Below are positions 8,004-61,290 of a stretch of DNA of 64,000 bases, piece by piece. The notes beneath the pieces are model-generated. The model ran no database searches, was not told the origin of the DNA, and saw nothing but the letters and a program-made list of their open reading frames with translations. The translations under genes and the position numbers were made by a program. The stretch comes from Tritrichomonas foetus (taxonomy: Eukaryota; Parabasalia; Tritrichomonadida; Tritrichomonadidae): the NCBI GenBank assembly GCA_001839685.1, contig MLAK01000926.1, positions 121,428 through 185,427 of the forward strand, given 5' to 3'. The stretch's first letter is position 1, and every line of letters begins with the position of its first letter.

Positions 8004-9115
8004 ATTTTGTAAGATGTATACAAACTAAATAGTCTTAACGTACGAAATCACTAAAATGATCCTTATCATCAGTATTACTTAATACCATCAGTCAAAAATC
8101 AAAACCCAAATAGCTAAAAGAATGACGAAAATTTCCCTTATCGCAAACTTCGCAAATGGCCGAATTCAAAAATATTTCGAAAATGATTCTGAAGAAGCTA
8201 TTGTTTCAGTTTTCGGGTGAACAGCTTTCAGTCAATTGTTAAATCTATATTTTATAGTTATGAGCCATATTTATTCATAGTTTTGAAATTTTGCAACAAT
8301 TAAACCGAAAAAAGAGCGATTTTGGAGAAAGCCTAAAAAAAAATTGTGAGAAGCTTTTTTTCCAAGAATCACAAAGATTATAATACTGCTTCCCATAATT
8401 CTATTTACACTTCTTCTATCGATTTTTAATTAAAAATCGCGAAAATTTTGATAGTTTTAACTCAGTGATGTTGAATTAATTCAATTTCCATTTGACAAAT
8501 ATGAATGTATTGAAATCTTTTCTGTCATAAAATTTTTGTATATGAAGAAAATAGACTGGCAGTCCTCAACAGCACATTCTCAAGCAGGGATACAGATACA
8601 ACGATTGAAAGACCAAATCAAGAAAAATGGAATCCAATATGTTTTTTTCCAGACTCGATGCCAAGTGAATTTTCTGATGACTCGCCATTTAGATGGCAAA
8701 ACATTCGTAATCTTCTCATTGATGCCTAAATTTTTTTTATTTATATCAAAATTATTAATATTTTTTTTATACTTCATTTTTGTATTTTGGAAAACATTAT
8801 AATTTTCGATGGAGGGTCATATGATAATAAAAAGCACGATTTATGATAAGAAATAATCAAGATATTAATGCTATAAAATCACTTTTTATCTCAATAATTC
8901 TCAGAAATTTCTGTTGGGTTTATTTTTTTCTCACAATTTTTTTTTGGATTTGGTTTTCTCTGTATCTTGATTTTTAAATTATAATATTTATATATTATTA
9001 ATAGGATTACAATTAAATAATTTTTAGATGACAATAATATCAACAATTATTCATTTAGATCTCTCAATAGTCTTCTACATCTAGAGCTAGTTAGTTTGTA
9101 TACATCTATTTTGTA
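8004..9115 (+). mobile_element. 1096-bp TIR transposon, copy A, with 8-bp target duplication
   Basis: The element proper is 8012-9107. It begins AGATGTATACAAACTAA and ends with the inverse, giving terminal inverted repeats of about 21 bp with one mismatch. It is flanked by the exact direct repeat ATTTTGTA (8004-8011 and 9108-9115). Two further copies of identical length lie at 29049-30144 and, inverted, at 60187-61282. It carries only two small frames (32 codons at 8122-8220 and 86 codons at 8542-8802), so it is probably non-autonomous. An 8-bp duplication is typical of hAT and P superfamilies, but the AGATG terminus does not match the usual hAT ends, so the superfamily is open. Confidence 0.85.
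8542..8802 (+). CDS. 86-aa ORF inside transposon copy A
   Basis: The frame starts MKKIDWQSSTAHSQ and is kept at the same length in all three copies. The first ~50 residues look protein-like; the rest is hydrophobic and Phe-rich, as expected from T-rich DNA. I recognise no domain. It may be a relic of a larger transposase or a chance frame; the copies are too similar for conservation to be informative. Confidence 0.3.
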   Translation: MKKIDWQSSTAHSQAGIQIQRLKDQIKKNGIQYVFFQTRCQVNFLMTRHLDGKTFVIFSLMPKFFLFISKLLIFFLYFIFVFWKTL

Positions 9116-9290
9116 TTAAAACTACCTTTTCTAATAAGCCTCTCAATTCTTTTCGATTTGCTTGAATAACTTTAATTTCTATTCAAATTATGCATCTTTA
9201 TCATCATAGACATTCAATTAATTTTATCGTTTATCTGATAGAAAAAAAAACTCTACCAAAAATAAAAAGAGTTATTTTTTTTTAAGCAAA

Positions 9291-9965
9291 ATGAATATTT
9301 CAACTTCCTCATCAGCATTTCCCGCACCAATTCCTATTCCAAATCAGTTAGACTCACTACCGAAAGGATCCCAACTTGATAAAATACAGCAAAAGAGAAG
9401 GCGAACTAATTTTAGTGTTGACGAGGATCTTCTCTTCCTTCAACTAGTTGGACAATATGGACATGACTGGAATAGAATATCTAAGTATTTTGAAGGAAGA
9501 ACACCGCGTTCATGCAAAGATCATTATGTCAATGTATTAAGTGGAACCATTAAAAGGACCAAGTTTACTGCTGAAGAAGACTCCCTTTTATTACATCTTT
9601 ACCAAATTCACGGACCACGCTGGACAATTATTGGCCACTACTTCCCAGACAGACCATCGATCTCTCTCAGGAATCGAATTGCTTCGCTCCAGATGAAAAG
9701 CGCTAAGTATGACACTACGAACAGTGGTGCTGAGGTTGATAGTTCCTGTATTAGAAACTATAACTATAATTCATTCTGTTCACCCCAGAATTTATATATG
9801 AATGAATTCACACCTTATAAAAATTTCAATAGAAGCTCTGAATCAGCTCAGGAACCAGAAATCAGATCGTCAATAGGAAATAATATCATGCAATCATTAA
9901 CCGACCTTGATGTTGCAATGTTTGATATTCAAGAAATATATAAGATTTCTTCATTGTTGTTGTAA
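9291..9965 (+). CDS. R2R3-type Myb DNA-binding protein
   Basis: A predicted 224-residue nuclear protein with two adjacent Myb repeats at residues ~37-140. Repeat one runs RRRTNFSVDEDLLFLQLV, then GHDWNRISKYFEGRTPRSCKDHY. Repeat two runs KFTAEEDSLLLHLYQIHG, then RWTIIGHYFPDRPSISLRNR. Both keep the spaced aromatic core and the recognition-helix patterns of trichomonad Myb factors, which bind Myb recognition elements in promoters. The tail after residue ~145 is Asn/Ser-rich and poorly structured. The ATG at 9291 is the first in frame. It lies 176 nt right of transposon copy A. Confidence 0.9.
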   Translation: MNISTSSSAFPAPIPIPNQLDSLPKGSQLDKIQQKRRRTNFSVDEDLLFLQLVGQYGHDWNRISKYFEGRTPRSCKDHYVNVLSGTIKRTKFTAEEDSLLLHLYQIHGPRWTIIGHYFPDRPSISLRNRIASLQMKSAKYDTTNSGAEVDSSCIRNYNYNSFCSPQNLYMNEFTPYKNFNRSSESAQEPEIRSSIGNNIMQSLTDLDVAMFDIQEIYKISSLLL

Positions 9966-10336
9966 GAGCAACTGATAATTGTAAATACTATGTTATTACC
10001 ATGTTGTTTTATTTTATTCTTTCTTTCTCTTTTTTTAATATTCATCAAAAACTCAAGCAATTCATCATTTTATCTCTAAAACCAAATTCATTAATCGATG
10101 GGTCTTCCATGATTGATGCAGCAAATGAAAATCTTTTATCACGAAACTAATAATATTCATGTATATTTTTTTGGGCGATGAAACTAATTGTGATAGAAGG
10201 TGAACCAACATACTATAGTGATTGATCATTTCCATTAATTTATTTGAACTCAAACATGGGATTTATTTGTTTTATCGATAGAATTATTAAAATCGTGAAT
10301 GTCATCAATATTTCTATTCAAAAATAATCTGTCAAA
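9966..10336. other. Intergenic stretch
   Basis: AT-rich with no supported gene. The 62-residue minus-strand open frame inside it lacks coding character. Confidence 0.45.
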
Positions 10337-10759
10337 ATGGGCGAAATGATATCTCCGCTTCTTCTCCTTTTCGCCATCGCCCTTTTTTTCGTCATGCTTT
10401 TTTATCAATCATACAAACTTATGGTGATATCTGACTACCAACTTCATCTCATTAATGGAAATGATTTCATCGAAAAATATAAAAAAAGCGTGAATTTCTT
10501 TTTAGGTTTTGCAATTTTCACAGCAACTTATTGCACACTTGCGGTTCGTTCTTTCGGGTTAATCATTTTTTCAATTATTCCAACTGGCTTAGATATCTAC
10601 AGATCTAGTCAACATTCATTGATTTTCACAGAACCACATTTTGACAATAGTATTGAAAAAATGAAATGTAAGCTTCTTGTCAATTCTCTTCTTTATATTA
10701 TTAATATAATTTATGCAATTACAATTCTTGTGTTGCAAAATCAAGAAAAAGGTGCTTAA
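10337..10759 (+). CDS. Cornichon-family ER cargo receptor (Erv14-like)
   Basis: A predicted 140-residue membrane protein with the size and layout of cornichon/Erv14 proteins, which load transmembrane cargo into COPII vesicles at the endoplasmic reticulum. Hydrophobic segments lie at residues ~5-25, ~52-77 and ~112-132. Between the first two sits ISDYQLHLINGNDFIEKYKK, which corresponds to the family's conserved DLExDYxNPxD region but is divergent. The third segment follows a short loop, as in the family. The stop overlaps TAAA. Assignment rests on layout and weak local similarity, so a different small membrane family is possible. Confidence 0.6.
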   Translation: MGEMISPLLLLFAIALFFVMLFYQSYKLMVISDYQLHLINGNDFIEKYKKSVNFFLGFAIFTATYCTLAVRSFGLIIFSIIPTGLDIYRSSQHSLIFTEPHFDNSIEKMKCKLLVNSLLYIINIIYAITILVLQNQEKGA

Positions 10760-11941
10760 AATTACAAAACAATCTAAATAATACTAAAACAATGCTAAAA
10801 TCTTGCGGGATTGTTTAAATTCATCAATTGTGAATCAAAGAAGAGGATTTTTCCCATTCCATCATAATTACTTGTTATTGTTTTGACAACCTCCCTTCAT
10901 GTATGATATATGCACTTTATTTGATAATGTGCTGTTCAGTTAATCCAGTTAGTTATATTATTTGTGATCATTATTCATATCGATGTTGGTTTCATTGATG
11001 TTTTATTCGTCTGAATTTTTTATTGAAGGCATTTTTTTAAATGCCTAAGGCGGATACTTGAACTCTTTCTATTAAATGTGCGAAAATTCATTACTTTTTC
11101 TTTTTTGTTTCCATTATCGTCAGAAACTCATCTAATTGATAGATATCATTATCTTTTCTGTAAATTTTGATATCATAAGTACATGAAAGCCTTTATTCTT
11201 ATTCATTCCCACTATTTCCGAAAAGATAAAAATGCTTTAAATTTTCAGGCTAAAAGAACAAATATGGGTTTTCCAAGTTTCTAAAAAAAAAGATGATCAT
11301 TTGATTCGCATGTATTGAAAAACACTTGTTATCTATCCTATCTCAAATATTCGATGTATAGAATACTTTGCATGAGTATCAAGCATATTTTCGAAATAAA
11401 AGTCATAATATTTCATTTCTCAACTTCTACATACAGAAAATCTTCATAATTAGATTTTTAACTTAATTATAACATAATATTAATATACTCAAAATTCGAG
11501 GGTCACTTAGTCCGTAGAATTTTGCTTTCACCATATCTAAAAGTCTCAATTCAAATTGAAAGTTTTCCCTTTGAGATGGAAAAAAAACTTTACTTTCCAA
11601 TTTCACCTAAACCATTCCATCAATGGTGAATTATATGAAACTTTGAACTATTATGGCCGTTTATTAATTTATTCAATTTTGATCTAATTGAAAATCCGAC
11701 AATAATAAAAGGTTAAATTGAAGGTTAACAGTGATTCTTCAGAAAAAGGATATCATCAAGCCAAACTTCCGAATTGTGAAATTTCCTATAATTATTAATA
11801 TTTGGTTTTCTAATTTGCTTGAAATATAGATTGTTTTCCAAATATGTCAAATGCATTATTGTAAATGCCAAAAAGCCTTCAGAAGCTTGAAAAAACACTA
11901 AAAAACAACTCTCTTATTAGAACAATTTTAATCGAATTTTT
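10760..11941. other. Intergenic stretch of about 1.2 kb
   Basis: AT-rich throughout. No coding frame, RNA gene or repeat was recognised. Confidence 0.5.
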
Positions 11942-11958
11942 AAACGGCCAAACCGTTT
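11942..11958. promoter_or_regulatory. AAACGG/CCGTTT inverted repeat upstream of CCT-theta
   Basis: AAACGG and CCGTTT are separated by 5 nt and lie 25-41 nt before the ATG. Each arm contains an AACNG-type core like Myb recognition elements, so a paired Myb site is possible. This is inference from sequence only. Confidence 0.3.
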
Positions 11959-11969
11959 TGCTTTTGTGG

Positions 11970-11975
11970 CCACTT
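11970..11975 (+). promoter_or_regulatory. Putative initiator CCACTT of CCT-theta
   Basis: GGCCACTTATC lies 8-13 nt before the ATG at 11983. Related CCACTT or TCACTT motifs sit in the same position before OLA1, DJ-1 and the U-box gene. Confidence 0.4.
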
Positions 11976-11982
11976 ATCTGAG

Positions 11983-13596
11983 ATGGCGAACAAGCAATCT
12001 TTCAACGGTTTCTTTAAAGAAGGAACACGATATTTCAACGGAACAGATGAAGTACTTCTCCGCAACATCGAAGCAGTCGTTGATTTAAGCAATCTTACAC
12101 GAACATCTCTCGGACCAAATGGAATGAAGAAAATCATCAAGAATCACTTTGGCAAACTCTATGTCACAGGTGATTGCGCAACTATTCTTCACGAAGCCGA
12201 AATTCAACACCCAGCTGCTAAAATGTTAGTTAACGCATCTCAAATGCAAGCCGAACAAATTGGCGATGGAACTAATTTTGTCATCACCTTTGCTGGTGAA
12301 TGTTTGAATCTCGCTGCACAGCTTATTCGTGCTGGCATCAATTCCAAAGATATTGTTGCTGGCTATCAAGAAGCCCTTGCCAAGGCCCTCGAGCTCCTCC
12401 CAACCCTCAATGTTGCAAAGACCACAGATATGCTTAACCACGAACAAGTTGCTGCTGCTCTCCGCACATCCCTTTCATCCCATCAATATCTCAATGCCGA
12501 ACATCTCGCCGACCTCGTTGCCACAGCTTGCATCCAAGCCAACCAAAACCAGAAGCTCAAGTTTTCTGTTGACAATGTCCGTGTTGCCAAAGCTCTTGGT
12601 GGCTCAACAGATGATTCATTTGTCGTCAAAGGCTTCGCCGTCAGACGTGAAGTTATGGGAACCATCCGCAAGATGGAGAACTGCAAGCTCGCCGTTTTCG
12701 CAACATCATTCGACCTCCCAGAATCAGACACAAAAATGCAAACAGTTTTCAATAGTGGTGAAGAAATGCAAAACTACAACTTATCACAAGAAAAGCGCAT
12801 GGATGAAATTGTTTCATCAATTGCCGAAAAAGGAGTCAATGTTGTTGTTTGCCAATCCAAGATCACCGAAATGGCCATGCACTTCCTTGAGAAGCACGGC
12901 ATCATGGCTCTCCAACTTCCATCGCAGTGGGACATCAAGCGTCTCTGCCGCTGCGTGAAGGCCCTCCCACTCCTCCGCATCTCTCAGCCACAGGACGACG
13001 AGATTGGCCACTGCCGCCTCGTCGAGGTCAAGGAAATCGGCTCAACACCACTCGTTATTTTCGAAGCCGACCAAAGCGACGTTTCAACAATCATCATCAG
13101 AGGTGCCACACCAAACGTGATTGATGACGTTGAGCGCTCAATAGATGATGCAGTTAACACATATCTCGTAATGACAGAGTATCCACAGCTCGTCCCGGGC
13201 GCAGGAGCAGCAGAAATGGAGCTTTCATGCCAGATCGCCAAGTGGGCAGAGTCCCGCCCAGGAATGGATCAATACGGCGCAAGGAAGTTCGCAGAAGCAC
13301 TCGAAATTATTCCAAAGACAATCGCTGAAACATGTGGATTAAAGATTGCCGATTTCCTCGCTAAGCTTCGAGCTGCACACAACAAGGGCGACAAGAACGC
13401 CTGCGTAGATATCGTCGAGCTCCAAGTCGGCGACGCTGAGAAACTCGGCGTATTCGACGTGGCTCACGTTAAAGAATGGGCACTCAAATTCGCAGTTGAT
13501 GTTGTCGTAACATTATTACGTGTTGATCAGATTTGCATGTCCAAGCCAGCCGGAGGACCAGCACCGCGTTCACCAGAAGCACGCGACATTGATTAA
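11983..13596 (+). CDS. CCT8: Chaperonin CCT subunit theta (TCP-1 theta)
   Basis: A predicted 537-residue subunit of the cytosolic group II chaperonin, which folds actin and tubulin in an ATP-driven eight-subunit ring. The N-terminal region matches CCT8: FFKEGTRYFNGTDEVLLRNI, then TRTSLGPNGMKKIIKNH. The nucleotide motif GDGTN is at residues 94-98, with the catalytic-type Asp95. Length is normal for the family. The usual TNDGATIL is TGDCATIL here, a Gly-to-Cys change at residue 65. The gene is more GC-rich and codon-biased than its neighbours, which suggests high expression. Its ATG lies just after a CCACTT initiator-like motif, and the stop overlaps TAAA. Confidence 0.97.
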   Translation: MANKQSFNGFFKEGTRYFNGTDEVLLRNIEAVVDLSNLTRTSLGPNGMKKIIKNHFGKLYVTGDCATILHEAEIQHPAAKMLVNASQMQAEQIGDGTNFVITFAGECLNLAAQLIRAGINSKDIVAGYQEALAKALELLPTLNVAKTTDMLNHEQVAAALRTSLSSHQYLNAEHLADLVATACIQANQNQKLKFSVDNVRVAKALGGSTDDSFVVKGFAVRREVMGTIRKMENCKLAVFATSFDLPESDTKMQTVFNSGEEMQNYNLSQEKRMDEIVSSIAEKGVNVVVCQSKITEMAMHFLEKHGIMALQLPSQWDIKRLCRCVKALPLLRISQPQDDEIGHCRLVEVKEIGSTPLVIFEADQSDVSTIIIRGATPNVIDDVERSIDDAVNTYLVMTEYPQLVPGAGAAEMELSCQIAKWAESRPGMDQYGARKFAEALEIIPKTIAETCGLKIADFLAKLRAAHNKGDKNACVDIVELQVGDAEKLGVFDVAHVKEWALKFAVDVVVTLLRVDQICMSKPAGGPAPRSPEARDID

Positions 13597-14182
13597 ATAC
13601 ACTCAATGAATTCATACATTTCCAATTGTCTCTTTTTATTATTATTTTATCTCTTTTTATATTCCTGACTTATTGAGTGTAAGGTGATTTAACTTGTTTG
13701 TTTTATCTGTTTAACTTGTTTGTTTTATCTGTTTAGCTTGTATGTTTTATATAAAATTGGCAATAAAATAGATTTTTTATATGGGAGATACTCGTTGTTA
13801 TTCTGAGAAAACTCATAGTATCTATGATTGTATGAATACTGATCGTTTCGACGAAATTCTTTCGCATTCCTGAAGAATTCTTTCGCATTTGGTTCATCTT
13901 TCAATTTATTTCTATTTCCATAATACATTAGAAGATGATATTATTTTATAAATGCAAGAAATCTTTTTGCTTATTTTAGTGACTTTAATTTTTATACATT
14001 CTTTTAAGACTTCGCATCATTCAACATTGTTGGACATTTTTAAATCAAACAAATATTTTTTTACTTTTCCTTTTTGAAGAATGAATATTTTGTTTGTCAT
14101 TTTTATTATCAAAAAATTCCTCATTTAAAAATCAAAATCTTTTCTTATTTTTATTCCAGAAATCAAAGAAATCACAAATTTT
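13597..14182. other. Intergenic stretch with a short tandem repeat
   Basis: Apart from the 22-bp repeat at about 13688-13750, no supported gene. The 67-residue minus-strand frame here is low-complexity and not convincing. Confidence 0.45.
13688..13750. repeat. 22-bp tandem repeat, about 2.8 copies
   Basis: The unit is TTTAACTTG then TTTGTTTTATCTG. Two copies are exact and the third is diverged. It lies about 90 nt after the CCT-theta stop. Confidence 0.8.
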
Positions 14183-14459
14183 ATGACAAACACAAGAAAA
14201 AAATTCGGTTTAACAGAAGAATTCATTCATTATTTTAATAATGAATCAAAAGAACAATCTCATCATAAATTAAAGAAGAAATCAGATGAACTTCGAAAAG
14301 AATATATTTATAATAAGAACAAGTAAAATAAATCGATCAGATGATATTCATCATCTAATTAAATATATTTCCAAAATAGAAAATTTCGATCTTAATTCTC
14401 GAATTCAAACATCATTTTTACAAAATAATTCAGATAATAGCAATAACACAAAAGAATAA
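14183..14459 (+). pseudogene. Possible frameshifted small gene remnant
   Basis: A 47-codon ATG frame (14183-14326) begins MTNTRKKFGLTEEFIHYFNN and has normal codon character. It stops at TAA just where the +1 frame continues with similar character (NRSDDIHHLIKYISKIENFD) to a TAA at 14457-14459. Together they read like one ~90-residue protein broken by a frameshift. Open sequence also extends upstream of the ATG. The family is not recognised, and chance is possible. Confidence 0.35.
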
Positions 14460-14689
14460 GTCTTCTAGAATTTTTTATGTCATTTGGTTCAATTAATATA
14501 TTTCGTTACATTTAGCTAAATAACGCTGAATATTCCATAGAATCATCAATATATTGTATTATTGGAAATAACTATGAAATTCTTCATATTCTGAAGAATG
14601 AGAATTGATGCAATTGTCTTCACTTTCACTTCATTTATTATAGACTAACATAACGATTTTATTGAATGATTATACTAACACAATTTCTT

Positions 14690-15946
14690 CTAATCATCAT
14701 CATCATTTTTATTACTAGAGCAGATATTTTGAAGCATCATTATTGCATCCTCTGCAAGCTCTGCGTGCTTTTCATTTTCGCTTCCACAAATATTTTGTAA
14801 TATATCAAAACACAGATCAAGGGATTCATTTAAATTAAATTGATGTTCATATTTAATCATTACAACCTTAGATGCTATGTCAGTAATAGAGTCAATGAGA
14901 TCTGGAATATACTTATTATTTTCCAAATAAGCTAATTCTTCAAAAATATGGATGATATTGGCATTAATTAGATCAGGGACCATTTTAAGTGGCAAATTAT
15001 AAATGATAGATAAAAATGATGGAATAATTGTTGTTTTAATTTTATAATCACCATTTGTAATTAAATGAAAATAAGATTGAATTAAATCAATTTTAAAAGC
15101 ATCAATATCAAAGTTATCACTTAGAATCGAAATAATTTCTATTAGACATCGTTGCATATCATAGTTATTATTTTCTGTTAGTAGCAAAAAGATAGTATGA
15201 ATGTTGTCTAATACAATACTTCCCAATTTTGCTATTGCTTTTTCAGAACGGTGAAAAATATTAATTAATGACTTAAAAAGGAAAAATAGAATATGTGAAT
15301 CTTGAACTGAAATCAAACGAGTGATAAAATTCTCAAATTCAAAGATTTGTTCTGTATCAAAAGGACAATTTATAGGAAAAAAAGCATTTGGTGGTAAAAT
15401 ATCATCAAAATAATCAAATTCTTGTTTGGAAATTCGATACAAAATGTTGGAAATTAGAAATGTGAGATTTTCTTGAGAAACAAAATAACACAAAATATAA
15501 ATACCACCTGTTTCAACAAATACTTGTCTTCCTTTATATGAGGCATGTTCTAGAAGTTCCGCTATTAAAGGCAACGTTTGTGGAGCAAATGAATATAAAC
15601 ATTTTAAATAACCAAGAAGACAAAGACGAGTGGAGTTTTCAATAGGACCATTTACAATGAATTGAAATAACTTCAAATCGAGAATGATGGACTTTTGAAA
15701 ATAATTTATAAATTTTTGAAGAAAAGATTCACTGAAAATTGGGGTTTCATTTCCAAAATTCATGTATAATGTATTTACAGGTGATTCCATCCTTTCCATG
15801 ATAGAAATGCATTCTTGAGATAATTCTTCGGAGCAAATTCTTGATTGGTCATTATTTTCAACGTCTTCCTCATTACTATCACTATCATTTATATTTCTAC
15901 ATCTTTCTTTTTGATTATTGATACCTGACTTATAATCAAAATTCAT
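14690..15946 (-). CDS. ARM-like alpha-solenoid protein, function unknown
   Basis: A predicted 418-residue protein. After an acidic, disordered N-terminus (residues 1-45) it consists of repeated ~40-residue helical pairs such as PLIAELLEHASYKGRQVFVE, LGSIVLDNIHTIFLLLTENN and PDLIDSITDIASKVVM, the pattern of armadillo or HEAT repeats. It ends in an Asp run. Such solenoids bind other proteins, for instance importin-alpha types, but no signature fixes a partner. There is no signal peptide. It is transcribed divergently from the BTB gene. An AACCGTT Myb-like site lies about 25 nt upstream of the ATG. Confidence 0.75.
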   Translation of the reverse strand: MNFDYKSGINNQKERCRNINDSDSNEEDVENNDQSRICSEELSQECISIMERMESPVNTLYMNFGNETPIFSESFLQKFINYFQKSIILDLKLFQFIVNGPIENSTRLCLLGYLKCLYSFAPQTLPLIAELLEHASYKGRQVFVETGGIYILCYFVSQENLTFLISNILYRISKQEFDYFDDILPPNAFFPINCPFDTEQIFEFENFITRLISVQDSHILFFLFKSLINIFHRSEKAIAKLGSIVLDNIHTIFLLLTENNNYDMQRCLIEIISILSDNFDIDAFKIDLIQSYFHLITNGDYKIKTTIIPSFLSIIYNLPLKMVPDLINANIIHIFEELAYLENNKYIPDLIDSITDIASKVVMIKYEHQFNLNESLDLCFDILQNICGSENEKHAELAEDAIMMLQNICSSNKNDDDD

Positions 15947-17592: not shown

Positions 17593-17632
17593 CATATTAA
17601 AAATTGTTCTTTCAGTGAATTTGCTTAATACT

Positions 17633-27468: not shown

Positions 27469-29031
27469 TTAGAAGTAGAGATCGCGTTCGCCCTTCTTGA
27501 TGCGATCGATTCTTTGCAAAGTTTGCTTCCTTCTTGCTGGATCTGTGATTTTCTGGATTTCCTTGCTGATCAAGTCCCATCCTACCTTTTGTGTTTCTGG
27601 TGATGCATAATCGATGAGGTATTCAGCAAGTGTTTGAATGGCATTTGGATGACACATATTGTGGATTTCACCAGACTTGGCCCATTTCATGAATGCTTCA
27701 CCTGTTCGTCCAAGCCTATAGCAAGCTGTGCACCATGATGGAACGTATCCTTCTTCCATTAATCCACGAACAACAACATCAAGTGGACGATGGTCAAATA
27801 ATGAAAATTGTCCTTTCGAACCATCAGTTTTCTTACCTTCGGCATTATATGAGCCGACTTCTGTACTTGATGCAGCTGACAGTTGTGAAATACCAAGCTT
27901 CAGAAGTTCGCTTCTCATTTTCTGGCCTTCGCGGGTTGAGATGATCATTCCTGTATATGGAACTGCACATCTTGTTACAGCGACGAGTTTCTTGAAGTCT
28001 TCATCACCAACAGTGTGTGGTGGATTTTCGGAGAGTGGTGTTCCTGTTGCTGGACGAATTCTTGGGAATGAGATTGTGTGTGGACCTGTTCCGTATGTCT
28101 TATCAAGGTGCTGTGAATGCTGCAACATGGCCAGCACTTCAAACCTGTAGTCTTAAAGTCCGAAAAGTGCACCAATTCCAACATCATCAATACCACCAAG
28201 TTGAGCACGATCCATGCATGTGATTCTGTAGTCGTAGTCAGCCTTTGGCCCGTATGGGTGATACTTCTTGAAAGATTCTCGGTGGTAGGTTTCTTGGAAA
28301 ACTGTGTAGGTTCCAACGCAGCCCAAAGCTTTGAGTCTCCTCATGTCAGAAACGGCAATTGTTGGAATTTCGACATTGATTCTTCGAATTTCACCACTTT
28401 TGCCAGATTTTGTCTTGGACGCGACTTTAACGGCTTCCAAAAACTCATCAAACGTGTAAAGTGGAGACTCGCCAGTGAGCATAAGAACACGCTTATGTCC
28501 CATGTCTTCGAGAACTTTAATTTCCTGCGCAACTTCATCAAGTGTGAGTTTGCTTCGTTCGATGGTTGTATTTGTTCCGCGATAGCCGCAATACGTGCAG
28601 GAGCAGTTGCAGTGGTTTGCGACATACAATGGGGCGAAAAGAACGATTCTGTTTCCATATATATGATTCTTGATTTCGAAGGCGGTTTGATAGAGTTCTT
28701 CGAGCGTTTTATGGTCAGTTGTTGGAATGTTCAAAAGAGCAGCGGCTTCATGAATATCGAGTCCGAGCATGAATTCTTTATTTGAAGCTGGCGCGTCCTT
28801 CATTGTGGCGCTTTCTTTGGCTTTCTGTAAAACTGCTCGAACATAGCCAATGTCTTTGGCTTTGTCATTCGACTCGACGATAGCTTTATAGATCTCGTGT
28901 TCGCGGATGATCGTGTCTGGCTCAGGAAGCTTGTGTAATTCTTTCTCTGGCGACCATTTTGTGCCTGTGAGGCATTGCTTGGAAATATTACGAATGAAAC
29001 TTGATGCTGTTCGAACTGATGAAGAAAGCAT
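27469..29031 (-). pseudogene. hydG: HydG, [FeFe]-hydrogenase maturase, with one in-frame stop
   Basis: A HydG of 520 codons read through one stop. HydG is a radical-SAM tyrosine lyase that makes the CO and CN ligands of [FeFe]-hydrogenase, here for the hydrogenosome. The N-terminus MLSSSVRTASSFIRNISKQ is a typical hydrogenosomal presequence. The radical-SAM motif CX3CX2C is Cys141, Cys145, Cys148. The auxiliary-cluster motif CX2CX22C near the end is intact, and the C-terminus GERDLYF is the family's. Codon 293 (28155-28153) is TAA where the family has Tyr in GL-Y-DYRFEV. Frame is unchanged on both sides, so a single base change suffices. The gene starts only 17 nt from transposon copy B. It is a recent pseudogene, an assembly error, or a readthrough case. 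Confidence 0.93.
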
Positions 29032-29048
29032 TTTTACTAGATCAGTTC

Positions 29049-30144
29049 AGATGTATACAGACCAAATAGTCTTAACGTACGAAATCACTAAAATGATCCT
29101 TATCATCAGTATTACTTAATACCATCAGTCAAAAATCAAAACCTAAATAGCTAAAAGAATGACGAAAATTTCCCTTATCGCAAACTTCGCAAATGGCCGA
29201 ATTCAAAAATATTTCGAAAATGATTCTGAAGAAGCTATTGTTTCAGTTTTCGGGTGAACAGCTTTCAGTCAATTGTTAAATCTATATTTTATAGTTATGA
29301 GCCATATTTATTCATAGTTTTGAAATTTTGCAACAATTAAACCGAAAAAAGAGCGATTTTGGAGAAAGCCTAAAAAAAAATTGTGAGAAGCTTTTTTTCC
29401 AAGAATCACAAAGATTATAATACTGCTTCCCATAATTCTATTTACACTTCTTCTATCGATTTTTAATTAAAAATCGCGAAAATTTTGATAGTTTTAACTC
29501 AGTGATGTTTAATTAATTCAATTTCCATTTGACAAATAAGAATGTATTGAAATCTTTTCTGTCATAAAATTTTAGTATATGAAGAAAATAGACTGGCAGT
29601 CCTCAACAGCACATTCTCAAGCAGGGATACAGATACAACGATTGAAAGACCAAATCAAGAAAAATGGAATCCAATATGTTTTTTTCCAGACTCGATGCCA
29701 AGTGAATTTTCTGATGACTCGCCAATTAGATGGCAAAACATTCGTAATCTTCTCATTGATGCCTAAATTTTTTTTATTTATATCAAAATTATTAATATTT
29801 TTTTTATACTTCATTTTTGTATTTTGGAAAACATTATAATTTTCGATGGAGGGTCATATGATAATAAAAAGCACGATTTATGATTAGAAATAATCAAGAT
29901 ATTAATACAATAAAATCACTTTTTATCTCAATAATTCTCAGAAATTTCTGTGGGATTTATTTTTTTCTCACAATTTTTTTTTGGATTTGGTTTTCTCTGT
30001 ATCTTGATTATTAAATTATAATATTTATATATTATTAATAGGATTACAATTAAATAATTTTTAGATGACAATAATATCAACAATTATTCATTTAGATCTC
30101 TCAATGGTCTTCTACATCTAGAGCTAGTTAGTTTGTATACATCT
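29049..30144 (+). mobile_element. 1096-bp TIR transposon, copy B, without target duplication
   Basis: Same length and orientation as copy A, with about fifteen scattered differences counted by eye. The left end has two extra changes in the inverted repeat (AGATGTATACAGACCAA). The flanks ATCAGTTC (left) and AAAAGATT (right) do not match, so no target duplication is seen. The left edge is 17 nt upstream of the HydG ATG; the right edge abuts a coding-like remnant. Confidence 0.85.
29579..29839 (+). CDS. 86-aa ORF inside transposon copy B
   Basis: Same frame and length as in copies A and C, with one visible substitution (His to Gln in TRxLDGKTF). No domain recognised. Confidence 0.3.
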   Translation: MKKIDWQSSTAHSQAGIQIQRLKDQIKKNGIQYVFFQTRCQVNFLMTRQLDGKTFVIFSLMPKFFLFISKLLIFFLYFIFVFWKTL

Positions 30145-41807: not shown

Positions 41808-42023
41808 AATATCATTTTTAAACTGAAGCGAAATAATTCAAAAACTAAGAAAACTTATTTTTTAATGACTGGAAAAAACTTTATTTTGTTGTATTAATAA
41901 AAAGGATTTTCATATTGACTGTCTTTTTTTCCCCTCTCCTTTACAGAAACCATAACATTATATTTCTTTTCCATTATCTCTCTTCCATTATCTCTTTTGA
42001 TTTATTTCAAGATCTAGGAGAGT
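41808..42023. other. Intergenic stretch before the minisatellite
   Basis: AT-rich with no gene recognised. Confidence 0.4.
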
Positions 42024-42360
42024 TGAATGTGTGTTTGTAGTCGAATGTGTGTTTGTAGTNNNNNNNNNNNNNNNNNNNNNNNNNNNNNNNNNNNNNNNNN
42101 NNNNNNNNNNNNNNNNNNNNNNNNNNNNNNNNNNNNNNNNNNNNNNNNNNNNNNNNNNNNNNNNNNNNNNNNNNNNNNNNNNNNNNNNNNNNNNNNNNNN
42201 NNNNNNNNNNNNNNNNNNNNNNNNNNNNNNNNNNNNNNNNNNNNNNNNNNNNNNNNNNNNNNNNNNNNNNNNNNNNNNNNNNNNNNNNNNNNNNNNNNNN
42301 NNNNNNNNNNNNNNGAATGTGTGTTTGTAGTTGAATGTGTGTTTGTAGTCGAATGATGAA
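42024..42360. repeat. 18-bp minisatellite with assembly gap
   Basis: Two units of GAATGTGTGTTTGTAGTC stand on the left and two on the right of a 255-nt N run (42060-42314). The gap is almost certainly a collapsed array of the same unit. True copy number is unknown. Open frames crossing it are artefacts. Confidence 0.9.
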
Positions 42361-42614
42361 TTCATCAATTGTCAGCTGCTTTTGGATAGCCCTCGAAAAA
42401 AATGAACATCATTCAGATTCACAAAGTAGTGCATTTGATATTTCTGGACAACTTTTGAATTCTTTCTCTCTTTCAATCAAAGACTTTGATTTTGATCAAC
42501 AAAAACAATCTGTCTTGGTCAAAAATGAAAAGAAAAATCGAAAATCTCATTATTTATATGTATTAAAAATGTTTACTGAAAAAATAAAAATAAAACATCA
42601 TGAATTACATTTCC

Positions 42615-50834: not shown

Positions 50835-50837
50835 TTA

Positions 50838-52840: not shown

Positions 52841-53613
52841 TCTGACGACATAATGATGACTTTGAATGGTTTATGCAAATATAAGGTAACTCATAAATTT
52901 GCTATTTTTCAACTTTTTCAATAATGTTATTCAATAAAATTTGAAAGATTCCATTTTACACAACGAGGCGAAGTGATCAGTATCATATCATCCAAAAAAT
53001 TTTACGTTATTCAATTTTGATCAAATCATATTAACTCATTTTCTCAAAATCTGTTGACTATATTTCTGTTTAATTAAAGAACCATACTAATTATAACATT
53101 ATAAATAAATATTTCTAAAAGCTAAGGAAAAAGATAAATTTTGATGTAATATACCGTTATATTTCAATCATCCATTCACTTTTCAGAACGATATATTGGC
53201 CATTGAAAATAAATAACATCATTGAAAATTTTCCACAAATTGAAAAATAGTCGTCCAATAAATTTATTGAAATTTTGCCGAAATAAAATTTAAATAAAAT
53301 TTAAAATAATCATGCATGGGATTCATAATCTCAATTTTAGATTGCCATGTAGAATAGTACAGAATTTTCATAATGTAGTTACATCATGTTTATATTGACT
53401 ATAAAAATATCTGAAAGTCTTTATTTCAATAGTTTATTGGTTGATTCAATACAATTTTTGTGTGAATATTCAAACATGATTACGATTGTTCAATTCTGTT
53501 AAGAAAAAGTTTGAGAGCTATTTCACAATTTTATTCAATCATGAACTCTGCTATTGAAATTTTCCATACCAAATAATTTTTTTGAATAGATAATTGAATA
53601 TACTTCTCAAAGA
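52841..53613. other. Divergent intergenic region
   Basis: About 770 bp, AT-rich, with no gene or repeat recognised. Confidence 0.45.
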
Positions 53614-56600
53614 ATGGACACTCAGTGCATTTCCGCTGAGATTCCTCAAAATATGACTGAAAATTCGAACACTAATAATCCAACAAGTGTTTTATCAACT
53701 CCCACACCCAATTTTTCGATAAACCAAAATTCGAATTCATCATCAAAGATAAACATCCCAGATGCAAATAACGGTATTAAGATAAATAATTTCAATAGCC
53801 AATTGAACCCTGTACCTGTCATCCCAAAAATGAACGAGCCGAATTCCAATATTCAGCCTGATCCGAATATTCCGAATTGTCAAAATTCCATCAATACCAT
53901 TCAACTGCGATCACCAAGGACAGCAAACTCTCAGTCAAATCAATATTTCCCAAGAAATTCAGAAATGCAATTAAGAAGAGCTTCGCTCGCCCCTTCATCA
54001 CAGCAACGCATCAGCATGCTCAACTACTACATGCAAGCCAACTCGAACAACCAGTCAGGAGCAATTGGGCAAAACCAATTTTTAGCTCAACAAAGATATG
54101 CCATGCAGCTACAACAGCAAATGCTACTCCAAAGACAGAGGGAGCTTCAGAAGCAAATGCAAATGCAACAACAAAATGGAGCAACAAACGATAATAAACA
54201 GGATAGTCCACCAAACTTGACCCCCACTCCAAACACTTCTGCTATTCCCGTAGCCAACCCTGCCTCAACTGCTCCACAAAGTCGGTCACCTGTTCCACAA
54301 ATTCCACCTCATCAAAATACTATGCAAAATTCGAACAACATGCAAAATGCTAATAACATTCAAAATGCTAATAATATACATAATATTAATAACATACAAA
54401 GCGTCAATAATATACAAAATGCAAATAACATTCAAAATGCTCATAATATACAGAACTTTAATAACAAACAAAACTTTAATAACATACAAAGCGTCAATAA
54501 TATACAAAACTTTAATAATATACAAAGCACCAATAATATACAGAACTTTAATAACATACAAAGCGTCAATAATATTCAAAACGTTAATAATTTACCTCAT
54601 GCCAATCATGGACAAAATGAATCTCATGGACAAAATGTGAATAATGTACAAAACGGTACTAATATGCAAGATGCGAATAGCATGCAATATAGTCAATGTA
54701 GACAAAACTTGAACCCTACCCAAACTAGTAAACCTCATTTACAATTGCCTTTACCAAATCATAATTATAAAAAATCATCACCATCACCATTTCAAACAAC
54801 AGCCATATTAGCTCCATCTTCGAGTTTTGCCCATACAAGTGATGGTATTCACACAGGATTCTATAATTGGCCCTCATCCAAATCCAATCAAGATCTTGCC
54901 AATCTGAAACGTGAGTTGAAAGTAGCTGCTAAACAAGAAGAATTTAATTCGCCAATTCTCTCAAAAAGTGGTTCTTCTAAAGTATTTGCTAAAGGGGCGA
55001 CTTATCAATCACAACAATCTAAACAATCTAACGAACAAGTCACATTTGAATTAAATTTAAATTTGCCAGCTGAATCAATCCCACCTCTTCCGATCGATGC
55101 AGATAAAATTTGGGCGAGAATTCAAGATCCAGACGAACCGGTGACATTTACAGAATTATTAGATCACGTGTATAGTAATGTTAATCCCAGTAATATACTT
55201 GCAGCATTATCACAAGATAAATCATTAAAGACGAGTTCAATTTCAATCGAACTTTCGCGCCATTTGAATTACATGCATCGAATTTTTAGAGCTGATGAAT
55301 TAATTGCCTTCACATCAAACACTCGACTTGATCCTGCTACATTAAGAGCATCACTAAAACCTCGACAATTAAGTCTATTCGACTGTGTGATAATTTTGTT
55401 AGATAAAATTCTGAAAGGTGTGAATAATGACAATGATAAAAAGCTAACCCTTCGAAACTTTTCCGAATATTTAATTCCAAGTGAATTAATTTCACCTGCC
55501 ACTAAAAGATCGAGATTATTATACTTAATTTTCTTGCCAATCAAATCTGTAAATGGTGACGAATACTTTATTACTGTTCATACAAACAAAAATAATGTCC
55601 GAATTTATTCCAAAGATACTCCTGGTAAAGTATTAATGAGTTTTTCTTTAGATAAAGTGAATTCGAGCGTTCGAGGAGATCATCTCATATTTGTTGATTC
55701 ACAGAAAAATGGTGCACCTATGCTTGCCTATAAATTTACATCAGGTGAAGGTGCTTTTGTATGGAATGAAGCATTTTCATCCAACAATTATGATCCACTC
55801 CTTACATTTATGACATGCATTCCACAAATGCTTGAATATTGTGATGGTGCACCAAAAGAGTTTTTTGATCAAATATGTGCTTTGATTAGTTCACCGGATT
55901 TAGAACTTGCCCAAGCCATTTGTGAAATTGGAAAAACTCAGTTATTAGGTCAAGAAGCATTTGAAAAGACACAGGCTACAATTAAAATGGTTCTCAGTTT
56001 ATTAAGTGAGAGAAATCTTCTTTGCCAATTTATTCGTGCATCTTTTCAGGACGAAATCGATCACACTAATAAGCCAGATACTATTTTCCGCGAGAGTTCA
56101 GTTGCCACCATGATTAGTGGGATTTTGATGTCATCAAGTGATATTGGATTTGCTGATCAAGTATGTAAAGTATTAACAAATAATATCACAGACTTAAATA
56201 ATGCAGTTTTAGCCTTTACTCGTGTTCAAAAACTCATTCAAACGCATACGAAATTTGTTTGCTGTCAAGCTTTTAAGGCGACACGAAGAAAATATCCAAA
56301 TAACTTAGTCCCTTTGTCAGCTACATCAGCTATCCTCTTTTTAAGATATTTAATTCCATATTTCCTGAAAGTATCTAAAGAATTAACCATCTTTAGTCAA
56401 AAATTAATAAATCCATTTGTATTTTCGCTGAGAGACGATCCCAAGTATTCTGTTGAAGCTCGCACCTACCATATAATCGTAAGATACTTATTAATGATCA
56501 CCAAGCCAAAAGATGACCAAATAAGTATTCGATCTGCAAACACCAAAGAAATAATTATTGATTTCTTAAAATCTAATTTTGAACAACTTCTTATTCATTT

Positions 56601-56736
56601 ACCGAAAATAATATATGGTAAAAACGAACATGCCTTAAAGTTTTCGATTTTAGAGATTCTCGAGAACTACTTCAACGGTACTGATGAAAACTATGAAAAA
56701 AGAATGTTTGATAAGACACTTTTCCCATCTGATTAA
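53614..56736 (+). CDS. RasGAP-domain protein with Asn/Gln-rich N-terminus
   Basis: A predicted 1040-residue protein. Residues 1-430 are disordered and Asn/Gln-rich, with a run of about a dozen NIQN(A/F/V)NN-type repeats at ~240-330. Residues ~640-720 may form a PH- or C2-like fold. Residues ~750-980 form a RasGAP domain: an arginine finger Arg826 in TIFRESSVATMISG and the FLR-type motif ILFLRYLIPYFL at ~908. It should speed GTP hydrolysis by Ras-type GTPases. The finger has the FRxxS context of active GAPs. Confidence 0.82.
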   Translation: MDTQCISAEIPQNMTENSNTNNPTSVLSTPTPNFSINQNSNSSSKINIPDANNGIKINNFNSQLNPVPVIPKMNEPNSNIQPDPNIPNCQNSINTIQLRSPRTANSQSNQYFPRNSEMQLRRASLAPSSQQRISMLNYYMQANSNNQSGAIGQNQFLAQQRYAMQLQQQMLLQRQRELQKQMQMQQQNGATNDNKQDSPPNLTPTPNTSAIPVANPASTAPQSRSPVPQIPPHQNTMQNSNNMQNANNIQNANNIHNINNIQSVNNIQNANNIQNAHNIQNFNNKQNFNNIQSVNNIQNFNNIQSTNNIQNFNNIQSVNNIQNVNNLPHANHGQNESHGQNVNNVQNGTNMQDANSMQYSQCRQNLNPTQTSKPHLQLPLPNHNYKKSSPSPFQTTAILAPSSSFAHTSDGIHTGFYNWPSSKSNQDLANLKRELKVAAKQEEFNSPILSKSGSSKVFAKGATYQSQQSKQSNEQVTFELNLNLPAESIPPLPIDADKIWARIQDPDEPVTFTELLDHVYSNVNPSNILAALSQDKSLKTSSISIELSRHLNYMHRIFRADELIAFTSNTRLDPATLRASLKPRQLSLFDCVIILLDKILKGVNNDNDKKLTLRNFSEYLIPSELISPATKRSRLLYLIFLPIKSVNGDEYFITVHTNKNNVRIYSKDTPGKVLMSFSLDKVNSSVRGDHLIFVDSQKNGAPMLAYKFTSGEGAFVWNEAFSSNNYDPLLTFMTCIPQMLEYCDGAPKEFFDQICALISSPDLELAQAICEIGKTQLLGQEAFEKTQATIKMVLSLLSERNLLCQFIRASFQDEIDHTNKPDTIFRESSVATMISGILMSSSDIGFADQVCKVLTNNITDLNNAVLAFTRVQKLIQTHTKFVCCQAFKATRRKYPNNLVPLSATSAILFLRYLIPYFLKVSKELTIFSQKLINPFVFSLRDDPKYSVEARTYHIIVRYLLMITKPKDDQISIRSANTKEIIIDFLKSNFEQLLIHLPKIIYGKNEHALKFSILEILENYFNGTDENYEKRMFDKTLFPSD
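54340..54600 (+). repeat. Coding repeat encoding NIQNxNN units
   Basis: A 21-24 bp unit (AATAACATACAAAACTTT and variants) repeats about a dozen times inside the RasGAP gene. The copies diverge mainly at the variable residue. Confidence 0.8.
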
Positions 56737-56908
56737 TTGTTTTTATTTCTTGTTATAGTAAAATATTATTCTATTTTTTGGGTAATTTTTATTTAAATTA
56801 GCAGATGTGATTAGCATTTTTTTGATATAATTAGAAAGAAAAAGAAGAATTAAGAGAAAGTAAGAGACCAATAATGAGAAAGAAAAGAAAAATCAAAAAG
56901 GAAAAGGC

Positions 56909-56932
56909 AAAAAAAAAAAAAAAAAAAAAAAA
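56909..56932. repeat. A24 homopolymer
   Basis: Twenty-four A between two convergent genes. Confidence 0.9.
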
Positions 56933-56974
56933 TATGATAGAGGTAATTTCTTTTGATGTATAATAATAACAAAT

Positions 56975-57934
56975 TTATTTTTTGTATGCTGTTTCAATAG
57001 TTATTGATTCCGATAGCTTTAGAGATTTGCCACATCGCTGTTTTTTGTTCTTCTTGGCTTTTTTCTTCTGTAATAATTGATACTTATCAGAAACACTAAT
57101 CATAAGAATAATGAAACACACAAATACGAAGCTCCATTTGTATAAATAATGTGATGTATAACGAATTTTCTCATTTGGAACAGAGCATTCAATAGCCAAA
57201 TAAATTGCAATAACAAATAAAACTGGTAAAAAAACATTTGGTAAGAAGAAACTAACGATAAAAGCTATTCCAAGTGTGAAAAAATAAAATTTAGCATTAG
57301 TAGCAATACTTTGATAATAAGTAGCTTTTTCGGAAATGCTTTTAACTGTTTGAATAGTTTGAACAACTGAATTTTGGATTGCTTGGAACTTTGAGCGCTC
57401 TTCGTCAAATAATTTTTGATATTCCACAAATCTTTTTCGAACTTGAACCATTAATTCATCCAAACTCTGTCTAGCAGTATTTAAAAACTCTGTAGATAAT
57501 GATACTGCTTGAAATACACTTAATATTCTTTCCATGTTGACTGAAGTAATATTTTCATGAACTGCGTGGAAGCATATTGTATCTATATTGATAAAATAAA
57601 TTGTGAAGATATTGAAGCTTTCAGAATCAAGTTGGGTGATAAAAGAGAAGTCAGAGTCATACACAGGAAGCTGATCAGATCTTCCATCTCGTGACTGCTC
57701 ACATATCATAATTGCTATTGCCAATTTAATCCTTTTATCAACATCTAAATTTATACATAAATCATTCATTGTTTTACCCAAATTTTCGTAGCATTTATCA
57801 ATTTTTTGTTTGGCGTTTCTTGTGATTATTGAAGCACTTCTGGATTCCTCAGCAGATGCAGTTGGAGGTGATTGTTGTATCACTAAAAAGCTGCTACCTG
57901 AGATTACGGAGAAAAATAAAAAGAAAATAGGCAT
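56975..57934 (-). CDS. GEX1/KAR5/Brambleberry-like nuclear-envelope protein
   Basis: A predicted 319-residue protein with the layout of the KAR5-GEX1-Brambleberry family, which is required for nuclear fusion after mating. A signal-peptide-like start (residues 1-18) is followed by a Cys-containing domain (Cys48, Cys60, Cys78, Cys121) with the family's KRxxLAxxxxxCE pattern as KRIKLAIAIMICE, then FNIFTIYFINIDTICFHAV. A coiled coil follows at ~150-205, then three membrane segments (~213-231, 233-250, 266-281) and a basic tail. Several family Cys are missing, so the fold may be reduced. Function in karyogamy is inferred from the family; sex is not established in trichomonads. Confidence 0.6.
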   Translation of the reverse strand: MPIFFLFFSVISGSSFLVIQQSPPTASAEESRSASIITRNAKQKIDKCYENLGKTMNDLCINLDVDKRIKLAIAIMICEQSRDGRSDQLPVYDSDFSFITQLDSESFNIFTIYFINIDTICFHAVHENITSVNMERILSVFQAVSLSTEFLNTARQSLDELMVQVRKRFVEYQKLFDEERSKFQAIQNSVVQTIQTVKSISEKATYYQSIATNAKFYFFTLGIAFIVSFFLPNVFLPVLFVIAIYLAIECSVPNEKIRYTSHYLYKWSFVFVCFIILMISVSDKYQLLQKKKAKKNKKQRCGKSLKLSESITIETAYKK

Positions 57935-58105
57935 AATGAACGTTTAATAAATCAACTTTTTCCGAACAAGAATATTCAATTTTATTTGATCGTCAATTGT
58001 CTTCGTATTTTTTTGCCAATTCACTCGTGAAAGAATATCTTGTGATTGTAGGCAAGCTTTTGGTAATCATCATTTACTAATGTTTTATTACATAACAAAA
58101 TCATA

Positions 58106-58744
58106 TTAAAGTAGAATTGTATAATTTTCACATGGACTTGGATCCTCTGCATCACTATCGTAAAGAGTTGCTGCATACTGTGAATAATCAAACTTTTCAG
58201 GAAATTGATTTGGGACCGTGAATTCAAATCCAGAATTTTCATCGTCATAAGAATCCACTATTTCCGGAAAAGCAATTTCTTTGCTTTCACTTGCTATATT
58301 CGGAATTGGATACTCTTTTCTATTTAAAAGAACCAGCCTCTCTCTTGTTGATGCCTTTTTAGTGTAAATTAATAATTTCTTCACTTCTTCAAATGTTGAT
58401 GTTTTGTTAAAACATGTGGATAAGTGAAAATAAATATTCCAATGTTTGATATCTGGATAAGAAAGTTTCAGTTTATCTTTATTGTTTTTTCTGGAATTAT
58501 CGATCAGGAAATTATGATGTCTAAAGTTATAAGAATGGCTATTGGTACTAATGCCGATAAAGTTGCTGAATATTTTAGAATGTGAAATAATAAGGTTATC
58601 ACTAAACCATCCAATTCCTATTTGAGGAATAATTTCTGGATATTTTTTTCCAAATTCCAAGCAATAATACACATTTGTTGAAAATGCTTTTGGTTTAATT
58701 AGCTTCCTTAATTCATCTAGTAGAGGTTCATGGTGTAATGCCAT
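58106..58744 (-). CDS. IBP39-like initiator-binding-domain protein
   Basis: A predicted 212-residue protein. Residues ~20-120 resemble the winged-helix initiator-binding domain of T. vaginalis IBP39, which binds the TCA(Py)(T/A) initiator: GIGWFSDNLIISHSKIFSNF, then NSHSYNFRHHNFLI, then WNIYFHLSTCF. The N- and C-terminal parts differ from IBP39, and the acidic tail may recruit RNA polymerase II. The family is expanded in trichomonads. This gene shares the window with the initiator-like motifs noted upstream of several genes. Assignment is from pattern recall; a search is needed to confirm. Confidence 0.5.
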   Translation of the reverse strand: MALHHEPLLDELRKLIKPKAFSTNVYYCLEFGKKYPEIIPQIGIGWFSDNLIISHSKIFSNFIGISTNSHSYNFRHHNFLIDNSRKNNKDKLKLSYPDIKHWNIYFHLSTCFNKTSTFEEVKKLLIYTKKASTRERLVLLNRKEYPIPNIASESKEIAFPEIVDSYDDENSGFEFTVPNQFPEKFDYSQYAATLYDSDAEDPSPCENYTILL

Positions 58745-59416
58745 TGTGAATTAGGATGATATGAAAATAATTATTATTTCGTTCTAGTCAAAACTATTCA
58801 ATTTTGATCCTCATTTCGCAACATTTGAATGCATCTTTAATTTTGTCATTCGTATTGAAAATTGAAGGAAATACACGTTTAGGTCTCTCAATTTCATTCT
58901 GTATCAGGACTTTTCGTCAGTTTTATGGTGTCTTTCCAAAGACTTTGGTAAAATAAATCCTCGAAAATAATATATATTTTCTGTTGGAATAACAATTTTT
59001 TCTATTTTTATTGATATAGAAAAATTCTAAGATATTTCTTGTCAGACAAATTGATTAAATTTGAAAAACAATTTTTTTTGGGAATCATTGCATTGTGATA
59101 ATAAAAGAAAATTGTAAGGTGATAAACATGTCAAAGAAATGGAAAGTGAAGCAAAAAAGAATAGTCAATAAACTATTGACTGATTGTTAATTTCAGAGGG
59201 TGTTAGCTCGACATAGTTAATAGTCAAACATTCACATGATATGAAAAAACATGAGCTGAGTGAATTTTCTCTTCTTTCAAAGAAGTGATATATAAGGCAT
59301 GCTATTTCCTAACAGCGTAAAAAAACAAAGTCAAATTATTTTTCAATACTTGAAATAGTTTATTCGATCGGAATAGAATCTATTCAATAGATGAGTTCAA
59401 AAATATCAATTTTTTA
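58745..59416. other. Intergenic stretch
   Basis: No supported gene. A perfect hairpin AGTCAATA-AAC-TATTGACT lies at 59163-59181, and the 20-bp palindromic repeat shared with 40913 lies at 59373-59392. Confidence 0.45.
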
Positions 59417-59803
59417 TTACTTTCTCTTTATTTGTTTTGTTGCTTTGGTACATTTAGACTTGCAAGTCTTCAATGATTTTTCTAGTGATTTAACTTTCTT
59501 ACCTGTGAGTTTATCAAGTCCCTTCTTATGTAAAATGTCTTTAAATAATTTTTCCATTCTTTTCTTCTCTTTCCTTTTTTCCATAAATCTAATAAATTCT
59601 TGAACCTTATCTGTTGATATCTGTGTGTTACTTGATAAATCACGGCGTATACTATTGAGTTGTTGCATCATTATATCATTTTCGGCATTATTAGATTCCA
59701 AAAGTTTATTATATGCGTAAATCATAAACATATCATCTGGTAATTCACTTCCTTCATCAGAATCATATGATGAGCCCATATATAAGAGTAGTCCGAATAT
59801 CAT
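59417..59803 (-). CDS. Small secreted-type or membrane-anchored protein
   Basis: A predicted 128-residue protein. A short hydrophobic start (MIFGLLLYMGSS) is followed by an acidic part (YDSDEGSELPDD), a coiled-coil-like middle (NDIMMQQLNSIRRDLSSN) and a very basic Lys-rich end (KKVKSLEKSLKTCKSKCTKA). No family is recognised. The start is the first ATG in frame. Confidence 0.6.
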   Translation of the reverse strand: MIFGLLLYMGSSYDSDEGSELPDDMFMIYAYNKLLESNNAENDIMMQQLNSIRRDLSSNTQISTDKVQEFIRFMEKRKEKKRMEKLFKDILHKKGLDKLTGKKVKSLEKSLKTCKSKCTKATKQIKRK

Positions 59804-60178
59804 AATAACTAAAAAATTAATAAACTATTCAAAGTGATGACTTTTTGAAAAGATGCATCAATCTCAGCAAAATGATGATATTTCACATTATAACTACTCA
59901 GTGAAATTGACATCTTGTACAAACTTTGTACTGCCAAGTAAACAATATTTTAGAAAATTTTCAAGAAATTTGTCGAAAAAAAAATCATGTTTATGCATTT
60001 ACAACATTAAAGAGTCAAATTTCAAGATCCATCCATAGTGTATTGGGAAATCAATAACTCTATTATTCTCATACTATATTTAGTTTTTAATGTAAAATGT
60101 AACTCATATGAGAATCAATAAAAATCATAAATATATAATAAACGGTCGTCATCTCATCAGATATTGACACAAAATTCA
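59804..60178. other. Intergenic stretch before transposon copy C
   Basis: No supported gene. A 61-codon ATG frame at 59853-60038 is low-complexity and weak. Confidence 0.4.
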
Positions 60179-61290
60179 ATTTAAATAGATGTATACAAAC
60201 TAACTAGCTCTAGATGTAGAAGACCATTGAGAGATCTAAATGAATAATTGTTGATATTATTGTCATCTAAATATTATTTAATTGTAATCCTATTAATAAT
60301 ATATAAATATTATAATTTAAAAATCAAGATACAGAGAAAACCAAATCCAAAAAAAAATTGTGAGAAAAAAATAAACCCAACAGAAATTTCTGAGAATTAT
60401 TGAGATAAAAAGGGATTTTATAGCATTAATATCTTGATTATTTCTTATCATAAATCGTGCTTTTTATTATCATATGACCCTCCATCGAAAATTATAATGT
60501 TTTCCAAAATACAAAAATGAAGTATAAAAAAAATATTAATAATTTTGATATAAATAAAAAAAATTTAGGCATCAATGAGAAGATTACGAATGTTTTGCCA
60601 TCTAAATGGCGAGTCATCAGAAAATTCACTTGGCATCGAGTCTGGAAAAAAACATATTGGATTCCATTTTTCTTGATTTGGTCTTTCAATCGTTGTATCT
60701 GTATCCCTGCTTGAGAATGTGCTGTTGAGGACTGCCAGTCTATTTTCTTCATATACTAAAATTTTATGACAGAAAAGATTTCAATACATTCATATTTGTC
60801 AAATGGAAATTGAATTAATTCAACATCACTGAGTTAAAACTATCAAAATTTTCGCGATTTTTAATTAAAAATCGATAGAAGAAGTGTAAATAGAATTATG
60901 GGAAGCAGTATTATAATCTTTGTGATTCTTGGAAAAAAAGCTTCTCACAATTTTTTTTTAGGCTTTCTCCAAAATCGCTCTTTTTTCGGTTTAATTGTTG
61001 CAAAATTTCAAAACTATGAATAAATATGGCTCATAACTATAAAAAATAGATTTAACAATTGACTGAAAGCTGTTCACCCGAAAACTGAAACAATAGCTTC
61101 TTCAGAATCATTTTCGAAATATTTTTGAATTCGGCCATTTGCGAAGTTTGCGATAAGGGAAATTTTCGTCATTCTTTTAGCTATTTGGGTTTTGATTTTT
61201 GACTNATGGNATTAAGTAATACTGATGATANGNATNATTTNAGTGATTTCGTACGTTAAGACTATTTAGTTTGTATACATCTATTTAAAT
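60179..61290 (-). mobile_element. 1096-bp TIR transposon, copy C (inverted), with 8-bp target duplication
   Basis: The element proper is 60187-61282, inverted relative to copies A and B. It is flanked by the exact direct repeat ATTTAAAT (60179-60186 and 61283-61290). Terminal repeats are intact. Both small frames are present (86 codons at 60752-60492, 32 codons at 61172-61074). Six N positions (61205-61241) mark poor sequence in one end. Confidence 0.85.
60492..60752 (-). CDS. 86-aa ORF inside transposon copy C
   Basis: Same frame and length as in copies A and B; the predicted protein is identical to that of copy A. No domain recognised. Confidence 0.3.
   Translation of the reverse strand: MKKIDWQSSTAHSQAGIQIQRLKDQIKKNGIQYVFFQTRCQVNFLMTRHLDGKTFVIFSLMPKFFLFISKLLIFFLYFIFVFWKTL

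Follow-up and report, generated by a model that had tools for sequence, protein, structure and literature searches.

Three copies of a 1096-bp repeat were found in the window, i.e., the whole 64-kb stretch of DNA that was analysed from Tritrichomonas foetus, a parasite of cattle. Copy A, very probably a non-autonomous P-superfamily element of the deletion class alpha described below, was placed at 8012-9107 (+), copy B at 29049-30144 (+), and copy C, inverted, at 60187-61282 (-). Each copy is exactly 1096 bp, which is the equal length given in the preliminary description. Copy A differs from copy B at 14 sites and from copy C at 5 sites and 6 N. The terminal inverted repeat of copies A and C matches over 20 of 21 bp, 17 bp of them perfect, and in copy A it occupies 8012-8032 (+) and 9087-9107 (-). 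The repeats of about 21 bp described earlier hold for these two copies, whereas the left repeat of copy B has 2 substitutions. The two exact 8-bp target site duplications of that description were also found, i.e., ATTTTGTA to the left (8004-8011) and right (9108-9115) of copy A, and ATTTAAAT adjoining copy C on both sides (60179-60186 and 61283-61290). A duplication was looked for in the flanks of copy B and none was found; recombination, later deletion or assembly may account for this.

An 18-bp perfect subterminal inverted repeat was recognized at unit positions 324-341 and 917-934 of copy A, with its left arm at 8335-8352 (+) and its right arm at 8928-8945 (-). Repeats of at least 18 bp appeared in 1 of 300 dinucleotide shuffles. 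The repeat probably serves for binding or assembly. The centre of copy A holds two remnants of a transposase gene. The N-terminal remnant (8542-8625, +) opens with ATG and MKKIDWQSS..., its start and frame being read by eye as in the longer relative L044 and the protein P0007. The C-terminal remnant (8622-8729, +) lies in another frame and ends with ...NIRNLLIDA and a stop, so the unit preserves the beginning of the gene from its ATG onward and, in a different frame, its final codons with the stop. The two remnants meet at 8622-8625 (+), a deletion junction with GAAA microhomology at which about 1 kb of transposase sequence is gone. Pfam searching of the unit's two short reading frames by themselves gave no match.

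Other features of the window were noted. The gene of the hydrogenase maturase HydG (27469-29046, -) has an in-frame stop at 28153-28155, and its split reading frame may be a dead gene or a sequencing error. The left end of copy B lies 17 bp upstream of the HydG start codon. A 722-aa frame was found at 1651-3819 (+), which, by eye, resembles a U-box at its start, von Willebrand A in its middle and Hint/intein at its end. A stretch of N lies between short tandem repeats at 42014-42361.

The repeat was searched in the T. foetus assembly (63.7 Mb, 1064 contigs). The 17-bp end, with at most one mismatch, was found 546 times forward and 544 times reverse, and the reversed-pattern control was found 1 and 3 times, so the ends are far from chance. 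The genome holds about five hundred copies. The "hundreds or thousands" expected earlier are therefore right as hundreds, and thousands were not reached in the assembly.

Transposase families were searched in the same genome, giving 4 matches for MULE, 0 for IS1595/Merlin, 11 for hAT, and 1 for the P-type RNase H domain. Among these 16 transposase loci, the ends of the unit were present in only one, the P-type locus L044 on contig C546. Unit positions 5-614 correspond to L044 2780-2170 (97.7% identity), and 611-1096 to L044 1158-672 (99.2%). Between the two blocks, L044 carries about 1 kb that the unit does not have. A 219-aa frame in this extra segment matched the P-type HTH domain PF12017 (E 2.7e-6, 28.1 bits, cut-off 23) and PF21787 (E 2.9e-5, 24.8 bits, cut-off 24.6), and these scores are modest. 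The preliminary description left the superfamily as unknown and proposed looking for a longer relative with the same ends and a transposase. L044 is such a relative, and it points to the P superfamily. L044 is not intact. Its left end is altered, and stops divide its transposase into open pieces, one more of which lies in another frame. Judged by eye, the part carrying the third catalytic residue is missing.

The extra segment was used to search the genome for further forms. Only L044 matched it in full; 9 loci share one end of it (class beta), 21 the other end (class gamma), one has both edges (class delta), and one lies on contig C493. Nineteen of the 21 gamma loci were fetched and inspected. 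On the scale of L044, 2113 bp, class alpha comprises 1-615 and 1627-2113 (junction GAAA), beta 1-575 and 1424-2113 (junction match of about 10 bp), gamma 1-751 and 1606-2113 (2 bp), and delta 1-694 and 1498-2113 (6 bp). The four classes are internally deleted derivatives of one colinear parent. The 18-bp subterminal repeat, sought in copy A only and judged in other classes from their retained segments, falls in segments that every sampled class retains. Of the extra segment, the C493 locus (12441-12546) retains bases 886-991 alone, and it may represent a fifth deletion class. TRFO_32366 and TRFO_06899, both annotated as "hypothetical proteins", are pieces of this transposon. TRFO_06899 (P0007, 140 aa) retains the transposase's coiled-coil start, and its junction, by eye, places it in gamma.

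A complete copy was not found via the extra segment, the C-terminal piece or a full-length relative from a metagenome. When the C-terminal piece was used as a protein query, 513 first-look candidates came up, and the best 150 of them were scored, all of which matched. The metagenome relative had 28 matches across the genome, with L044 as the best. A scaffold gap may conceal a complete copy. Genome searches scored the best candidates only (40 of 615; 150 of 513), and thus their counts are lower bounds.

Target site duplications were examined in 59 copies, i.e., those with two ends among the sampled loci, which are not a random sample. Exact 8-bp duplications were found in 42 of the 59, duplications of 9 bp in 2, and a 7/8 match in 1, and when flanks were swapped among copies no pair matched at 8/8. 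The true transposition with 8-bp duplications proposed earlier is borne out by these counts. By class, the exact duplications were counted by hand as 20/30 in alpha, 5/8 in beta, 15/18 in gamma, 1/1 in delta and 1/1 in another form; for L044 no exact duplication was scored. The set left out L001 and L045 (duplicates), L010 and L011 (N-gapped), and L051 (one-ended). The denominator kept L044, whose left end is altered, together with five copies flanked by N or a contig end (L002, L005, L008, L013 and L023), one with a single N (L004) and two whose right end is truncated (L046 and L049). The targets showed no strong motif and no palindrome, complementary pairs being 56/168, a value reached or exceeded in 1767 of 2000 shuffles.

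The median pairwise divergence was 0.73% among 30 sampled alpha copies, i.e., the 1096-bp class, and likewise 0.73% among 18 gamma copies; beta distances were inflated by about 40 misaligned columns. Because of this low divergence the amplification burst looks young, in line with the recent activity suggested earlier. At one locus (L009, contig C40), two unit copies face each other head to head with about 270 bp between them. L009-L012, the first longer-copy candidates from the terminal-repeat list, were rejected as pairs of ordinary copies or scaffold N.

The transposase core was studied by profile and fold. A PDB search with an 18-sequence profile found the P transposase, with the profile match at 6p5a 333-376, and single-sequence PDB searches, whether by the L044 frame or by P0010, did not find it. 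The modelling predicts an RNase H-fold D-D-E core of P type. One relative with 39% identity was used for the fold test, with a mean pLDDT of 68.5 and rmsd of 7.6-7.9, and in this model the match to P was clearly better than that to MULE. The third acidic residue was chosen by eye from an HPxEN motif, at which the relative P0012 has K. For the GTP-binding insertion region, the fold alignment spans P 128-566, parts have pLDDT below 50, and no Pfam match for such a domain was obtained. A THAP domain was detected neither in the L044 frame nor in the 18 aligned sequences, several of which are fragments without the N-terminus. In the unit, no plus-strand stop-to-stop frame longer than 45 aa ends upstream of the start. 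Five N-termini (P0007, P0008, P0009, P0013 and P0026) open with a coiled coil, by eye.

The ends, the 8-bp duplications, the longer relative with P-type domains, the colinear gene remnants and the three further deletion classes support one reading. The 1096-bp unit is very probably a non-autonomous DNA transposon of the P superfamily, which lost about 1 kb of its transposase at GAAA and then reached about five hundred copies through a transposase acting in trans. The assignment is to the P superfamily only, by its core. The unit is not filed as a canonical THAP-bearing P element because all known P proteins carry THAP, as the relevant passage of PMC1562414 has it. The loss would have taken place in a longer parent, in whose transposase gene GAAA matches on either side marked its limits, possibly by interrupted gap repair after excision, and failed repair of this kind would make new deleted forms. 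A full-length copy elsewhere, present now or recently and not seen in the assembly, would supply the transposase in trans. The chemistry may be cut-and-paste like that of P, in which the transposase would pair the ends, excise the element and insert it with an 8-bp stagger.

It was also considered that an element of another superfamily captured a fragment of a P transposase, with L044 as the captured form. Such an event would fit L044, which stands alone as a long copy and has an altered left end as well as a broken gene. However, the unit has the start region and the stop of the gene in the right order, four deletion classes have one colinear parent in common, and such ends were not found to enclose any other transposase. 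The 8-bp duplication and the subterminal repeats also fit P. We regard capture as very unlikely. A non-autonomous hAT element is less likely still. The hAT superfamily too makes 8-bp duplications, like those at the copies, and 11 matches to the hAT dimerisation domain exist in the same genome, but none of these 11 loci has the ends of the unit. L044, whose frame is without PF05699, contradicts this origin as well. A Mutator-like (MULE) origin can hardly be credited, since it is contradicted by L044, the modelled fold fits P clearly better, none of the 4 MULE loci has a pair of ends, end-like stretches at 4 substitutions, one of which is present in each of two of them, can also be chance matches (3 such lie outside the copies in the 64-kb window), and Trichomonas vaginalis MULEs give duplications of 10-14 bp in the section of PMC2725143 on them. 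Merlin/IS1595 was rejected with 0 matches to PF12762 in the genome at E 0.001.

The P-superfamily unit was compared with known systems. According to the parts of PMC7776569 on Drosophila P, both elements have 8-bp duplications, terminal and subterminal inverted repeats, a transposase with an HTH and an RNase H D-D-E core, and internally deleted non-autonomous copies beside a longer one. In contrast, the terminal repeats are 17 bp in the T. foetus unit and 31 bp in Drosophila, and the T. foetus element has AG...CT ends, no detected THAP, and no complete copy seen in the assembly. The ends differ from known P ends, as the preliminary description had remarked. Zebrafish Pdre2/THAP9, as outlined in sections of PMC7776569 and PMC10983969, shares short terminal repeats (13 bp in Pdre2), 8-bp duplications, internally deleted copies and distant subterminal inverted repeats (12 bp in Pdre2, with a spacer of about 400 bp). 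The zebrafish protein, however, carries THAP, its element has CATACC... ends instead of AG...CT, and its host is a vertebrate. The Anopheles P-MITEs in the portion of PMC1562414 on these elements are likewise non-autonomous derivatives of P; they have 8-bp duplications, and their ends are common to a P subfamily. Their centre is unrelated to P, whereas the centre of the T. foetus unit is still transposase with a plain deletion. IS481EU, a family of DNA transposons in parabasalids, shares the host group of the unit and also occurs in T. foetus; in the passages on it in PMC10045372 the duplications measure about 4, 15 or 25 bp and the ends are of TG..CA type, unlike those of the unit.

The kind of element is already known, and the host group, the undetected THAP and the AG...CT ends are what differ. 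Full-text searching, judged by title and the start of the abstract, gave no paper on P elements in trichomonads among the matches listed, and a prior Repbase or Dfam entry is possible. A P term together with Trichomonas returned only PMC3164196, a wheat-rust genome paper. With this result one T. foetus repeat family is named; in the assembly of another strain, about 16-17% was reported as unclassified repeat in the section of PMC11415386 on repeats. A P-superfamily lineage without detectable THAP from a parabasalid bears on the age of P elements and on the time of THAP gain. The five hundred or so near-identical copies could act as strain markers.

A broader scenario was considered, which we hold to be improbable. 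The parabasalid P would be an old THAP-less lineage, and THAP a later animal addition. The T. foetus lineage would be ruled by its deletion products, with the coiled coil of TRFO_06899 from gamma (21 loci) possibly poisoning the pairing of transposase, as a KP-like repressor.

Other transposase-like sequences were observed in the genome. L075 (1086-4240, contig C142) is a distinct P-like transposon, 3155 bp long, whose ends are CCCGACCGACTCGA and whose 807-aa frame is intact. L076, L077 and L078 (contigs C310, C887 and C532) make up a third lineage of P-like transposases, whose open frames measure 700-821 aa. The Pfam P-domain scores of both families were under the cut-offs. L075 and L076-L078 were rejected as parents of the unit, as they are other sequences and L075 also has other ends. 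Near hAT or MULE matches, L032 and L036 have frames of about 220-250 aa and share a C-terminal stretch with L034; by eye, these resemble mariner-type transposases.
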